DNA of 37,752 nucleotides from Treponema sp. Lineage in GTDB: Bacteria > Spirochaetota > Spirochaetia > Treponematales > Breznakiellaceae. Below are positions 19,192 through 36,520 of the stretch, in pieces. Both the position numbers and the translations under genes were made by a program. Numbering within the stretch: the stretch's first letter is position 1; each line of letters opens with the position of its first letter. The DNA lies in assembly GCA_031256635.1 (NCBI GenBank), contig JAIRQF010000115.1, positions 1 to 37,752 on the forward strand, in the 5' to 3' direction. The notes under the pieces were generated by a model, which made no database searches, was not told where the DNA came from, and worked only from the letters and a program-made list of their open reading frames with translations.

Positions 19192-19662
19192 TTATTTTGG
19201 AAAAACGATTAACGGGCGGCGGTGACCGGTTTGTTTAAGAGCGTTTCCTTCAGGAAGGCTCATATCCTGCTGTTCGTTTGATTGTCGTATTCCTGAATTA
19301 TCATTTTTTTCTGAAATATTGGATTTTTTTTCCACTGGTTTTATTTTTACATTTGATGAACTTGTTGTTTTAACGGCTTTATTTTTAGTATTTACGGTTT
19401 TTCTTTTTTCCGCCGGTTTAGCGGTCAGCTTTGTTTTAATTTCCTTTTTTTTATCCTGTGTTTTTTTTAAGGTTTTCTTTACCTCTGTAGTTTTTTTTGC
19501 GGCAGTTTTTTTAATTTCAGGTTTGGATGCTTTTTTTACAGATACAGCAGGCTTTTTTACCGCAGTTTTGCTTTTTTTTACTATTTTTTCACTTTTTACA
19601 GGTTTTTTTACTTGTTTTGAAGAATTTTTATCAATTTTTTTCTTTACTGTATCCTTTTTCAT
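19192..19662 (-). CDS. Lysine-rich histone H1-like protein
   Basis: 156 residues, dominated by Lys, Ala, Thr, Ser and Val in irregular KKT/KPA-like repeats (KKTAAKKTTEVKKTLKKTQDK), so strongly basic and disordered; this is the composition of bacterial H1-like nucleoid proteins. The tail (about the last 35 residues) is different and Gln/Ser-rich, ending in RRPLIVFPK. ATG 19662 is preferred over the track's GTG because GAGG lies 8 bases before it. It has its own promoter-like elements and sits directly upstream of the flaB promoter. DNA or RNA binding is inferred from composition alone. Confidence 0.7.
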   Translation of the reverse strand: MKKDTVKKKIDKNSSKQVKKPVKSEKIVKKSKTAVKKPAVSVKKASKPEIKKTAAKKTTEVKKTLKKTQDKKKEIKTKLTAKPAEKRKTVNTKNKAVKTTSSSNVKIKPVEKKSNISEKNDNSGIRQSNEQQDMSLPEGNALKQTGHRRPLIVFPK

Positions 19663-19708
19663 AAAATACACCTCATTTCTTCTTTGTTATAATACTTATG
19701 GCAAACAT

Positions 19709-31809: not shown

Positions 31810-33468
31810 TTATGATTTATATTCAAGACTGAGCGTTATGGTCGTCGCGTCGCAGACTTCGGCGGGTCCGAAATATTGAATCGGGCCAGGAACTAGGAAG
31901 CATGTTTTATCGGCCCAGCCGCCGCGTTTTTCCGCGAATGTCTTAAAGGGTTTCCCGTTAAGATCGACCAGCGCTTTTTTAATTACCGGCTTTTTTGCGC
32001 CGTGCCGGTGTTCAAGGTCCATCATTGTTGTAAGGGGGATGCCGCCTGCTATCCATTCTGAAGCCGGAGCGGTCAGATTCTTTACGCTTGAAATATATCC
32101 TGTTAATCCGGAAGCTATTAGAACAAACGCGCTGAAACCAAGTGAATAACAATAATCGGAATCAAAGTTTGACGGGAATGCGCAGCGGCCTTCATAACCG
32201 AAAAAATGCCCGAGCGCGCTGAATTTTCCGCTGTACTGTCCGTCCTTTTTCTTTACAGCCAACTTTTTTTCAACCATTCCGATTAAAAGTTTCTCGGTTT
32301 CTATTCTGGAAACCTGAACATTTCCGTGCGGATCGCGATCTACCAAAAATTGCTGCGCGATATCCGGGGGAAGCGATTGCAATATTCTGTATGATGTTTC
32401 AGGAATTCTGCTTGAGAGCCAGTACATCTGATCGATAAAACTGGTGATAACCGAAAAATCTTTTTCCTCATCCGCGATTGTATCGTTCAGGTCGTTTATC
32501 AGTTTCTTTATTTCGGGAATAAACTCAACAAGGCCTTCGGGAATTAAAATAATTCCGAAGTTGCATCCGTTTTCCGAGCGCTTAATTATTGACTGGCATA
32601 TCTGATCCACAACTTTTTCAAGAGACATTGCCTTTTCTTCGATCTCTTCGGAGATAAGGCAGATATTGGGCTGAGTCTGCAAAGCGCATTCAAGCGCTAT
32701 GTGGCTTGCGGAGCGGCCCATCAATTTAATAAAGTGCCAGTATTTTTTTGCGCTGTTTGTATCGCGGCAGAGATTGCCTATTAATTCAGAGTATGTTTTG
32801 CACGCGGTATCAAAGCCGAAAGATGCTTCGATATGCTCATTTTTTAGATCACCGTCAATTGTTTTAGGACAGCCTATTACCTGAATTGCCGTTCCGTTTT
32901 CTAAAAAATATTCAGCTAACAGCGCGGCGTTGGTATTGGAGTCATCCCCTCCTATTACGACAACCGCGTCAAGGTTAAGCTTTTTGGCTGTATCAAGAGA
33001 AGCGGACAACTGTTCAGGAGTTTCTATCTTGGTGCGTCCGGAGCCGATTATGTCAAAACCGCCTGTGTTGCGGTACTCGTCAATTATTTCTTTGGTCAAA
33101 AGAATTGTTTTATTTTCGATAAGGCCGCTTGGCCCGCCTTTAAAACCGTAAAGAACAGAAGAGGAATTGCCTTTTTTAAGACCGTCAAACAAACCTGCTA
33201 TTACATTATGCCCGCCCGGCGCCTGTCCGCCTGAAAGTATTACTCCCACTTTTAGTTCGCGTTTTAACTTGTCGTTTTTTCCGGTTTTAAAGGTTGCGGC
33301 AGGTTTCCCGTAAGTAAGTTTAAAAATTTTCCGCAGTTCTTCCTTGTCCGAAATTGCCCCGGTAGGAGAACCAAACTCTATCGCGATATCTTCGACATTA
33401 CCGCCAAGGATCGCAGGAAGTTTTGGTTTATATCCATAACGAACTTTCTGTAACGCGGATACATTCAT
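31810..33468 (-). CDS. pfp: Pyrophosphate-dependent 6-phosphofructokinase, long form
   Basis: Reversible fructose-6-phosphate phosphorylation using PPi, the glycolytic step typical of spirochaetes. From ATG 33468 the protein is 552 residues, the size of the long PFP clade. [13 protein letters not shown] is the phosphate-donor loop, GGDDSNTNA carries the second Asp that marks PPi specificity, [10 protein letters not shown] contains the matching Lys and catalytic Asp, and [13 protein letters not shown] binds sugar phosphate. AGGAG with a 6-base spacer selects this start over the track's upstream one. A TATAAT box lies 58 bases upstream. Confidence 0.94.
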
Positions 33469-33525
33469 GATCATCTCCTGACATTTTATATTAAAAGTGA
33501 TTACAAAACGGCAAAAACCAGTCGA

Positions 33526-33531
33526 ATTATA
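33526..33531 (-). promoter_or_regulatory. Possible -10 box for pfp
   Basis: A perfect TATAAT on the minus strand, preceded 17 bases away by the weak TTATTG. The implied leader is about 50 bases and holds the AGGAG ribosome site. Confidence 0.35.
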
Positions 33532-33623
33532 CAAATATTTTAATAAAACAATAATATTTAAAACTATCGCTTACAAAACTTCCGTGAAAAAACGTGTTCA
33601 ATATATGCTAATTCGCGTCCGGC

Positions 33624-33713
33624 TTATTTGCTTTTGTGTCTGTTTTTTCGTAATTTCTTTTTACGTTTATGGGTTGCTATTTTTCGCAGTTTGCGCTTTC
33701 TTCCGCAGGGCAC
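33624..33713 (-). CDS. 29-aa AURKAIP1/COX24-domain small basic protein, likely ribosomal
   Basis: This gene is too short for the ORF track. GTG at 33713 is preceded by AGGAG with a 7-base spacer and reads 29 residues to TAA. The peptide begins MPCGRKRKLRKIATHKRKKK and ends in Arg/Lys/His-rich residues, very like the bacterial AURKAIP1/COX24 domain proteins (about 30 residues, usually starting MPSGKKRKRHK). Relatives of this family are the mitochondrial mS38 and mycobacterial bS22 at the small subunit; an unannotated bS22 was reported in the Borrelia ribosome structure. It has a strong own promoter. The family call rests on recall of its sequence pattern. Confidence 0.85.
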   Translation of the reverse strand: MPCGRKRKLRKIATHKRKKKLRKNRHKSK

Positions 33714-33740
33714 TTAAACTCTCCTAGGGTATGAATAAAG

Positions 33741-33754
33741 ACGGCTCAGGCCGT
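33741..33754 (-). promoter_or_regulatory. Stem-loop at the start of the small-protein transcript
   Basis: ACGGC-CTGA-GCCGT on the minus strand, followed by TCTTTATT. It could be the terminator of the upstream PRPP synthetase-like gene, or an attenuator in the leader of the 29-aa gene, because it lies after that gene's promoter. Confidence 0.45.
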
Positions 33755-33762
33755 ATTGTTAA

Positions 33763-33791
33763 ATTATGATTGAATAGGGGAAAATGGTCAA
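33763..33791 (-). promoter_or_regulatory. Sigma-70-type promoter for the 29-aa gene
   Basis: Minus strand TTGACC, exactly 17 bases, CATAAT; each box has 5 of 6 consensus bases. The predicted start is near 33756, with a leader of about 43 bases. Confidence 0.7.
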
Positions 33792-33800
33792 GAGCGCGGA

Positions 33801-34901
33801 TTATTTCCCTTTTAAATAAATGCCGGCGTCAAAAGAACGAAGCAGCTTGCTCATCGATTCATTGCAGATTATCGCTTTTATTATCTGCGATGCCAGCTCA
33901 GCAGAGGATATGACTTCAAAACCGGGCATGGTTTCTTTTAAATTACTGCAGCATACGGTATCGGTTACAAGTGTGCGGTTAAGCAGGCCTTCATCACAAA
34001 GGGTTTTTAATTTTTCCATAGCGGGCGGTGAAAAAAGCGCATGTACGGAAATGATGTTTATTTCTTTTGGTTTTAATGTTGACAGGACACGGATTAATTT
34101 TTCGACAGAGCTTGCGGTATCAATCATATCATCTACTATCCAGAGACTTTTTCCTTCAATAGGCTCCGCGGAAAGGATATTTATTGATTCAATTGAATTT
34201 GGTTTTGAATAATCGCGCTGTTTGTGTGCGACAACCAAAGGCGCGCCGAATGAATTTGCGAAAACACGCGCCAGCTTCTCACCGCCGGCGTCAACTGAAC
34301 AGAAAGCCCAGTTTGTTCTGACTTCCTGTTCCAGTTTTTCAAAAGTCTGAATATATTTATCGCACAGATATTTATTTAACAGCGTCAGCGCGGGAATATC
34401 GTCAATTGCGCAAAAAGCAGGATCGAGCATTGTTTTGGATTTATCAGAATGTAATTGAAAAGTGACTATATGCCGAACCCCAAGGCTTGAAAGGGTTTTT
34501 AGATGAACCCATAAACCTACAGAACTTCGCCTTGTTGTACGATCCGATCTTGAACATGAAATAAACGGTTCAAAAACAAGGATTCTGTTAACTTGACAGC
34601 GTATTAAAGCGTCTACGGCATGATATAATTCAATTTTCGCTTCTTCAACGCCGATCTCAGCTTCATTGCGTGCGCTTGATGTAAATAAAACAACATCCTT
34701 GCCTCTAAGAGATGAATTGACCTGGACTTCCATTTCGCCGTTTGCGAAACGATCCGTTGTAAGCAAATCAAGTCCGTTTATCTGTTCGGTTATTTTTGAA
34801 AAACTTAAATATTTGGACAGATGCCCGATTACCTGTTCTGCGTAATTTCGCATTGAGCGTGTCGCGCATACTATAAAAGAGTTCATTAATATCAGTATCA
34901 T
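33801..34901 (-). CDS. prs: Ribose-phosphate pyrophosphokinase-like protein
   Basis: Expected to make PRPP from ribose 5-phosphate and ATP. The fold order fits: FANGEMEVQVNSSLRGKDVVLFTS, FISCSRSDRTTR (the usual active-site loop is YARQDR, so this differs), QLHSDKS, and the PRPP loop LWIVDDMIDTASSVEKL. 366 residues is longer than the usual 310-320, with extra sequence in the C-terminal third and at the end. ATG 34886 (MNSFIVCATRSM) is an equally good start; no ribosome site is seen for either. It may be a variant class, as some treponemes appear to have. Confidence 0.82.
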   Translation of the reverse strand: MILILMNSFIVCATRSMRNYAEQVIGHLSKYLSFSKITEQINGLDLLTTDRFANGEMEVQVNSSLRGKDVVLFTSSARNEAEIGVEEAKIELYHAVDALIRCQVNRILVFEPFISCSRSDRTTRRSSVGLWVHLKTLSSLGVRHIVTFQLHSDKSKTMLDPAFCAIDDIPALTLLNKYLCDKYIQTFEKLEQEVRTNWAFCSVDAGGEKLARVFANSFGAPLVVAHKQRDYSKPNSIESINILSAEPIEGKSLWIVDDMIDTASSVEKLIRVLSTLKPKEINIISVHALFSPPAMEKLKTLCDEGLLNRTLVTDTVCCSNLKETMPGFEVISSAELASQIIKAIICNESMSKLLRSFDAGIYLKGK

Positions 34902-34977
34902 GACTATTCAGTAAAAAAGCAATAAAATTAAACTTGCACAGCTTCAATTAATTACTTTACAAACATATAGTAATCTA

Positions 34978-35006
34978 TAGACATATTTTTAATAATATGA
35001 TAAAAT
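34978..35006 (+). promoter_or_regulatory. recA promoter
   Basis: TAGACA, 17 bases, TAAAAT; both boxes 5 of 6. The predicted start is near 35013. No LexA-type dyad of the GAAC-N4-GTTC or CTG-N10-CAG kind was seen, so SOS control is not supported here. Confidence 0.6.
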
Positions 35007-35024
35007 ATTTCAAGTTTCGGTCAT

Positions 35025-35044
35025 GCGCTATGCGATATAGGCGC
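35025..35044 (+). promoter_or_regulatory. Stem-loop in the recA leader
   Basis: GCGCTAT and ATAGGCGC can pair with one bulged G around the loop GCGAT, just upstream of the GGGGAGGAG ribosome site. Could affect recA mRNA stability or translation. Confidence 0.35.
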
Positions 35045-35066
35045 CATATATGGGGAGGAGATAATT

Positions 35067-36194
35067 ATGGCTAAGTCAAATGAGACAGAAAAAACCAGGA
35101 TCAATCCTGACGCGACAAGCGAGGAGAAATCAAAAGCCCTGGAAGCGGCCCGGCTTCAGATTGAGAAACAATTTGGCGCGGGATCATTAATTAAACTTGG
35201 AACGCATAACGCGGCTGCCGGTATCGATGTAGTGCCCTCAGGCTCTATTCTTTTGGATGAAGCGCTTGGTATTGGCGGATATCCGCGCGGACGCATTATC
35301 GAGATTTTCGGTCCTGAATCATCGGGGAAAACCACCCTCGCGCTTCATGCGATAGCGGAAGCTCAGAAACTGGGCGGAAACGCGGCGTTTATTGACGCTG
35401 AGCATGCCCTGGACCCTGTTTACGCTAAAAATCTCGGGGTTAACATTGATGAGCTGTGGGTAAGCCAGCCTGATAACGGAGAGCAGGCAATGGAAATCAC
35501 CGAAAGCCTTGTGCGCTCAGGCGCGGTTGATGTAATTGTTGTGGACTCTGTAGCGGCTCTTACCCCGCAATCTGAAATTGAGGGTGAAATGGGTGACGCG
35601 CAGATGGGCGCGCAGGCCCGTCTTATGAGTCAGGCTTTACGCAAACTTACCGCGACTATCGGGAAATCAAGAACAATTCTGATCTTTATAAATCAGATCC
35701 GCATGAAAATCGGCGTATTCTTCGGAAACCCCGAAACAACAACCGGCGGAAACGCGCTTAAGTTTTACTCATCGTTACGCCTTGAAGTCCGCAAAACGGA
35801 AACAATCGAAGTCAGCAAAGACACTGACGCAATCGGAAACAGGGTTCGCGTTAAAGTTGTAAAAAATAAAGTAGCGCCTCCTTTCAGGAAAACAGAAATT
35901 GAGCTAATGTTCGGCAAAGGCATTTCCGCCACGGGAAGCCTTTTGGACTGCGCGGTAAAATACGAAATAATTAAAAAAAGCGGCGCATGGTATTCCTACA
36001 ATGAAGAAAAAATAGGGCAGGGCAGGGATAATACGCGCGATTATCTTGATCAGCATCCGGATTTTCTGCGTGAATTGGAAACAAAACTGCGCAAACTTAT
36101 TTTCCCGGGAAGGGAATTCCCCCAGGCGAAAGCAACAGAAGCGAAACCCACTAAACCAGTTAAAGCTTCAAAGGATGACGCTAAAGCTGAATAG
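35067..36194 (+). CDS. recA: Recombinase RecA
   Basis: Strand-exchange ATPase of homologous recombination. 375 residues. Walker A is GPESSGKTT, Walker B is [12 protein letters not shown], and the L1/L2 regions ([49 protein letters not shown]) are intact; the usual MFG in L2 is FFG. The C-terminal tail is Lys/Ala/Pro-rich ([19 protein letters not shown]), in contrast to the acidic tails common elsewhere. GGGGAGGAG lies before the ATG, with its own promoter. It stands alone, followed by a palindromic element. Confidence 0.98.
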
Positions 36195-36277
36195 CTAACA
36201 ATATGACCATGTTGGTGATTTGATTATAAACTGAAACTGCTTTAAAGAATATATTTAACTATTTTGCAATTAAATTA

Positions 36278-36490
36278 CCAATATGGCATATGCGGAAAGC
36301 CTTGGTTGCGTCTGTGGCAGTTTTGACGGTGTTTATGTTACCAAGTCCGTTAATTATCATTATGTATAATAAATTATATTATTCAAAATAAATTTCAGCT
36401 GCCTAAACGAAGTAACGGACTCGTCACTAAGTTCATGTATAGATTTCTGCCATCCTAGCACACCAAGGCTTTCCGCATATGCCATATTGG
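36278..36490. repeat. 213-bp palindromic element with perfect 29-bp terminal inverted repeats
   Basis: The left arm (36278-36306, starting CCAATATGGCATATGCGG) is matched base for base by the right arm (36462-36490). Inside, shorter arms pair in nested order: GGCAG/CTGCC, TGACG/CGTCA and AGTCCGTTA/TAACGGACT, so nearly the whole element can fold into one long stem with an A/T-rich tip. No ORF of note lies inside and no clear target duplication flanks it. It resembles a MITE or large palindromic repeat; a structured RNA or recA terminator is also possible. It fills most of the 361-base gap between recA and the next gene. Confidence 0.8.
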
Positions 36491-36520
36491 AAAGTTGCTT
36501 ATAATAAATAATATCATTTC

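Follow-up and report, generated by a model that had tools for sequence, protein, structure and literature searches.

Genomic context of a short basic reading frame

The 37,752-nt stretch of Treponema sp. DNA analysed here (the window; contig JAIRQF010000115.1) carries a very short open reading frame on the minus strand between prs and pfp (Table 1). The prs gene ends at 33801, and the start of pfp is placed best at the ATG at 33468, not at the start of a longer TTG ORF. The short frame reads from a GTG (33713-33711) through 28 further codons, and its 29-aa product, MPCGRKRKLRKIATHKRKKKLRKNRHKSK, has lysine or arginine at 16 of its 29 residues. A first-pass annotation of the window had described this basic, GTG-started frame of 29 codons between prs and pfp, together with an AGGAG seven bases before the start and a TTGACC-17-CATAAT promoter, and the sequence bears out each of these elements. 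The predicted promoter ties for the best of nine promoter-like matches in the interval 33300-35100, where shuffled sequences lead to an expectation of 4.5.

Table 1. Coordinates of the features discussed, in positions of the window.
Feature	Position	Strand	Description and basis
bS22 coding sequence	33624..33713	(-)	GTG start, 29 codons and stop; phmmer matches, phylum conservation, purifying selection
Shine-Dalgarno AGGAG	33721..33725	(-)	7-nt spacer to the GTG; read from sequence
Leader hairpin ACGGC-CTGA-GCCGT	33741..33754	(-)	5-bp candidate element just past the predicted transcription start, between promoter and Shine-Dalgarno
Sigma-70 promoter TTGACC-17-CATAAT	33763..33791	(-)	Predicted; same form in most family loci
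Inverted-repeat element	36272..36496		225 bp
Lysine-rich protein	19192..19671		159 aa

Two other features of the window are recorded here as separate observations. Just downstream of recA lies a 225-bp element whose terminal inverted repeats are 35 nt long and 94% complementary. Two more near-full copies (88% identity) and one partial copy occur elsewhere in the genome, which suggests a non-autonomous element of the MITE type. Near two flagellin genes, a lysine-rich, repeat-like protein of 159 aa resembles, by eye, histone-H1-like bacterial proteins.

Similarity to bS22 chains of solved ribosomes

We compared the peptide with the sequences of all solved structures using phmmer. The closest match is bS22 of Borrelia burgdorferi (8FMW_V, E = 9.2e-10, 24 of 27 aligned residues identical), followed by bS22 of Flavobacterium johnsoniae (7JIL_5, E = 2.2e-6) and by a chain labelled 'AURKAIP1/COX24 domain-containing protein' (9I5V_10, E = 2.9e-6). 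These are the only three distinct sequences among the PDB matches, and each is bS22 or a synonym of it. A profile built from 16 diverse relatives of the peptide, run against the same solved-structure sequences, recovers the same three chains at about 1e-13 to 1e-14. In an alignment of 16 sequences that includes the window protein, the THKRKK and NR motifs are invariant. Spirochaete and Bacteroidota bS22 are recognised by a length of about 28-33 residues, lysine or arginine at more than half of the positions and the THKRKK and NR motifs; the window peptide has all of these and also significant sequence similarity to bS22 as resolved in ribosome structures. Searches of phage and plasmid collections returned no match.

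The first-pass annotation had also tied the peptide to mS38, bS22 and the COX24 family, and had named the COX24_C model as the check. The bS22 part of this kinship stands on the solved-chain matches, whereas the link to COX24_C and mS38/AURKAIP1 was not recovered by sequence, either with PF08213 or with the 16-relative profile, and survives only as a structural link in the literature. Specifically, the window protein matched neither COX24_C in the Pfam search (PF08213, gathering cut-off 23 bits) nor ribo_bS22 in the NCBIfam search (NF047430, equivalog cut-off 34 bits). Both models likewise missed the bS22 proteins of Borrelia and F. johnsoniae known from solved ribosomes, which were included as controls, whereas an actinobacterial bS22 control scored 46.2 bits with PF08213 and 62.6 bits with NF047430. 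Membership in bS22 therefore cannot rest on PF08213, which the window peptide does not match; equally, since solved homologues are missed too, the lack of matches reflects a gap in the models and does not refute the bS22 assignment. For the same reason we rejected both models as membership tests. The tie of spirochaete bS22 to the COX24_C family is thus indirect and rests on published structural comparison, and the spirochaete type of the protein escapes the general family models tested.

Conservation across the Spirochaetota

Of the 393 Spirochaetota genomes searched, 346 gave a match to bS22 (among the 327 of good quality, 302), nearly always in a single copy. The corresponding counts are 155 of 200 for the family of the window (good quality, 39 of 45) and 29 of 40 for its genus (good quality, 11 of 12). 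Most of the absences in the genus look like assembly gaps, because 8 of the 11 genomes without a match (67-87% complete) are also missing pfp. Two genomes that are 95-98% complete and have no match (G351 and G406) may be true absences. In another genome (G296) the match begins at 867605, exactly where bb0822 is published to start (867605-867697; PMC10618245), and this ties the phylum search to the gene of the Borrelia ribosomal protein. Within the genus, codon differences from the window copy amount to 283 synonymous and 21 non-synonymous changes, and the coding sequence is under purifying selection.

Named genomes were sampled by a DNA pattern scan, and among the matches listed the PCG form of the protein occurs in Treponema, other Spirochaetes, Bacteroidota, Ignavibacteria, Neomarinimicrobiota, Cloacimonadota and WOR-3. 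One record among the matches listed, titled as a Streptomyces griseus MAG (L051), carries the Bacteroidota form, which suggests a mis-binned contig or a wrong label. One genome (G032) has two copies (L189 and L188), one beside pfp and the other at the extreme end of another contig; given 6% contamination, the second may lie on a foreign contig.

A-rich sequence easily yields short, low-complexity, basic ORFs, and recognition of this peptide by neither Pfam nor NCBIfam is what one would see if it were an untranslated intergenic frame of lysine and arginine codons that is open by chance. Against this stand the E-value of 9e-10 to a solved ribosomal protein, the phylum-wide conservation, and the synonymous bias of codon change together with the conserved Shine-Dalgarno; conservation refutes the chance frame, to which we give a negligible probability. 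The solved-chain matches, the presence in 346 of 393 genomes and the 283:21 synonymous bias together identify the protein as spirochaete bS22. We are thus almost certain that the ORF encodes ribosomal protein bS22 and has its own predicted sigma-70 promoter, a GUG start and a strong Shine-Dalgarno; the product would bind in the 16S rRNA pocket. Judged by homology, it is a further member of a known protein, of the spirochaete type, and bS22 as traced by these matches is near-universal in spirochaetes and no peculiarity of Borrelia. The first-pass identification as a bS22-type ribosomal protein is supported, and its comparison with an unannotated protein of the Borrelia ribosome was right: that protein, bb0822, is likewise GUG-started (PMC10618245).

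The neighbouring genes are far less constant. Conservation of position across spirochaetes had been proposed as a check, and the frame is indeed kept in hundreds of genomes, but its neighbours are not: pfp adjoins the gene at 16 of the 26 loci from the genus, prs is the upstream neighbour in the window only among these loci, and neither lies beside bS22 in the other genera examined. We therefore rejected a conserved prs-bS22-pfp operon. In four members of the genus (L005, L013, L020 and L022) a tRNA-Glu(TTC) gene lies upstream of bS22 with no promoter match between the two, so that they may be co-transcribed there.

Start codon, Shine-Dalgarno and promoter

A Shine-Dalgarno motif precedes bS22 in all 60 distinct spirochaete loci considered. 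The start codon is GTG in 141 of 149 distinct loci of the family and ATG in the remaining 8, whereas the control gene rpmJ (L36) starts with ATG in 30 of 30 cases in the same family; pfp, a second control, has ATG in all 8 loci matched. In 121 of the 149 family loci we found a promoter with 10 or more matches out of 12, mostly TTGACC-17-CATACT or CATAAT, a count that is descriptive because the score was tuned on the consensus of those same loci. A fair comparison is given by a generic sigma-70 score, for which the mean best value is 9.2 vs 7.1 in mononucleotide shuffles. A dedicated promoter, conserved in form, precedes most bS22 copies of the family.

A non-AUG start was also observed at another small ribosomal protein gene. 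In the same family, TTG is the start codon of bS21 (rpsU) in 19 of the 25 loci read, against 4 with ATG and 1 with GTG (L346-L375; the copy of the window's own genome is L373). A long GGAGGTGA Shine-Dalgarno lies before the start, and in some loci an in-frame GTG upstream could be the true one. This extended Shine-Dalgarno recalls the extended rpsU Shine-Dalgarno described for Flavobacteriales in PMC9976891.

A candidate leader hairpin

The interval between promoter and Shine-Dalgarno contains a small hairpin (Table 1), and one of the same shape was found in 17 loci, 15 of them from the window's genus, the rows having been picked by eye for the stem and aligned by hand. Over these rows the six proposed pairs are formed in 89% of cells and three of them are changed on both sides, a pairing inflated by the way in which the rows were chosen and aligned. 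The covariation score was reached in 1 of 500 shuffles of the 17 hand-picked loci, the shuffling leaving relatedness in. In 11 of the 17 the outermost pair does not form, and for these reasons we regard the covariation support as weak to moderate. Genome-wide the motif is found a single time, and a generic genomic repeat was rejected on that ground. Leader length across the family varies between 21 and 105 nt, and folding is only marginally more stable than that of shuffled sequences (mean z -0.5), so that a single family-wide leader structure was rejected. An Rfam search gave no leader match, and its single sub-threshold snoRNA match was taken as chance. The hairpin is accordingly a candidate element, a lead of weak to moderate strength towards a 5' stabiliser, an attenuator or a binding site.

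It is fairly probable that the hairpin has no regulatory part and simply stabilises the 5' end of the mRNA or terminates the upstream gene. The stem sits at the predicted 5' end of the mRNA, a T-rich stretch follows it in many relatives, and hairpins vary between lineages and are absent where leaders are short. A terminator of prs would nevertheless be odd in this place, the stem lying downstream of bS22's own promoter, and 5 bp is short for such a role. Alternatively, the conserved GUG and the hairpin could form a feedback or attenuation device of the ribosomal-protein leader kind, through which bS22 expression would be regulated at the level of its mRNA. Consistent with such control are the start codon contrast with rpmJ, the position of the stem between promoter and Shine-Dalgarno with its double-sided changes in the aligned loci, its single occurrence in the genome, and a hairpin of the same shape kept in L005 and L022, where tRNA-Glu precedes bS22 without a promoter match. 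Many family leaders, however, are only 21-30 nt long, too short for the hairpin, and the near-shuffled folding, the stem-selected rows with their failing outermost pair and the lack of an Rfam leader match also weigh against it, so that we consider self-control of this kind unlikely. The fuller proposal, in which spirochaete bS22 would regulate its own production by way of the conserved GUG and a lineage-specific hairpin as an undescribed ribosomal-protein leader, possibly in parallel with bS21 and its mostly UUG start behind an extended Shine-Dalgarno, is marginally more doubtful still. The non-regulatory reading is the one that we favour.

Comparison with known systems and proposed role

The nearest known counterpart, Borrelia bS22 (bb0822, 8FMW chain V), shares with the window protein the N-terminus MPCGRKRKL and the GUG start, and is absent from annotation. 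It differs by two or three substitutions (R10K, A13S, L21R), by its length of 31 codons in the locus read (two extra C-terminal residues) and by its neighbouring genes. The F. johnsoniae protein (7JIL chain 5; the organism is named in PMC10618245) and the Bacteroidota form have the same length and the THKRKK....NRHK core; unlike the window gene, Bacteroidota loci among the matches listed start with ATG without a Shine-Dalgarno, and residue 3 of the F. johnsoniae protein is S. Actinobacterial bS22 (NF047430; M. smegmatis, C. acnes) is a short basic helix in the same rRNA pocket (PMC10085706), but its sequence is too distant for NF047430 to recognise the spirochaete form. A basic helix also occupies this pocket in mS38/AURKAIP1/COX24 (PF08213) and eL41 (PMC10618245, PMC10085706); no tested sequence model connects these with the window protein, and the likeness may be homology or analogy.

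In Borrelia, bS22 was found as unexpected density in a pocket of the 30S subunit, unannotated and with a GUG start; the pocket is formed by 16S rRNA h2, h27, h44 and h45, and the protein contacts H68 of the 23S rRNA (PMC10618245). The density was clear, yet mass spectrometry did not detect the protein (PMC10618245). In mitochondria, certain mRNAs depend on the counterpart mS38 for efficient initiation of translation (PMC6582356). Transferring the Borrelia structure to the window protein, we infer that it is expressed and built into the ribosome, with contacts as follows. Transcription would start at the gene's own sigma-70 promoter, and translation at the GUG behind the strong Shine-Dalgarno. 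At the subunit interface, the 29-residue basic helix would fill the 16S rRNA pocket made by h2, h27, h44 and h45; it would also touch H67/H68 of the 23S rRNA, and would in this way brace h44/h45, near the decoding site, and an inter-subunit bridge.

Both the short length and the GTG start of bS22 work against gene finders, and its recognition amends the ribosomal gene inventory of an entire phylum, human pathogens included. The protein adjoins the decoding centre, the target of many antibiotics, and its conserved non-AUG start poses a simple, testable question on how bS22 is controlled. The general interest of the finding lies in a phylum-wide annotation gap and a conserved non-AUG start.
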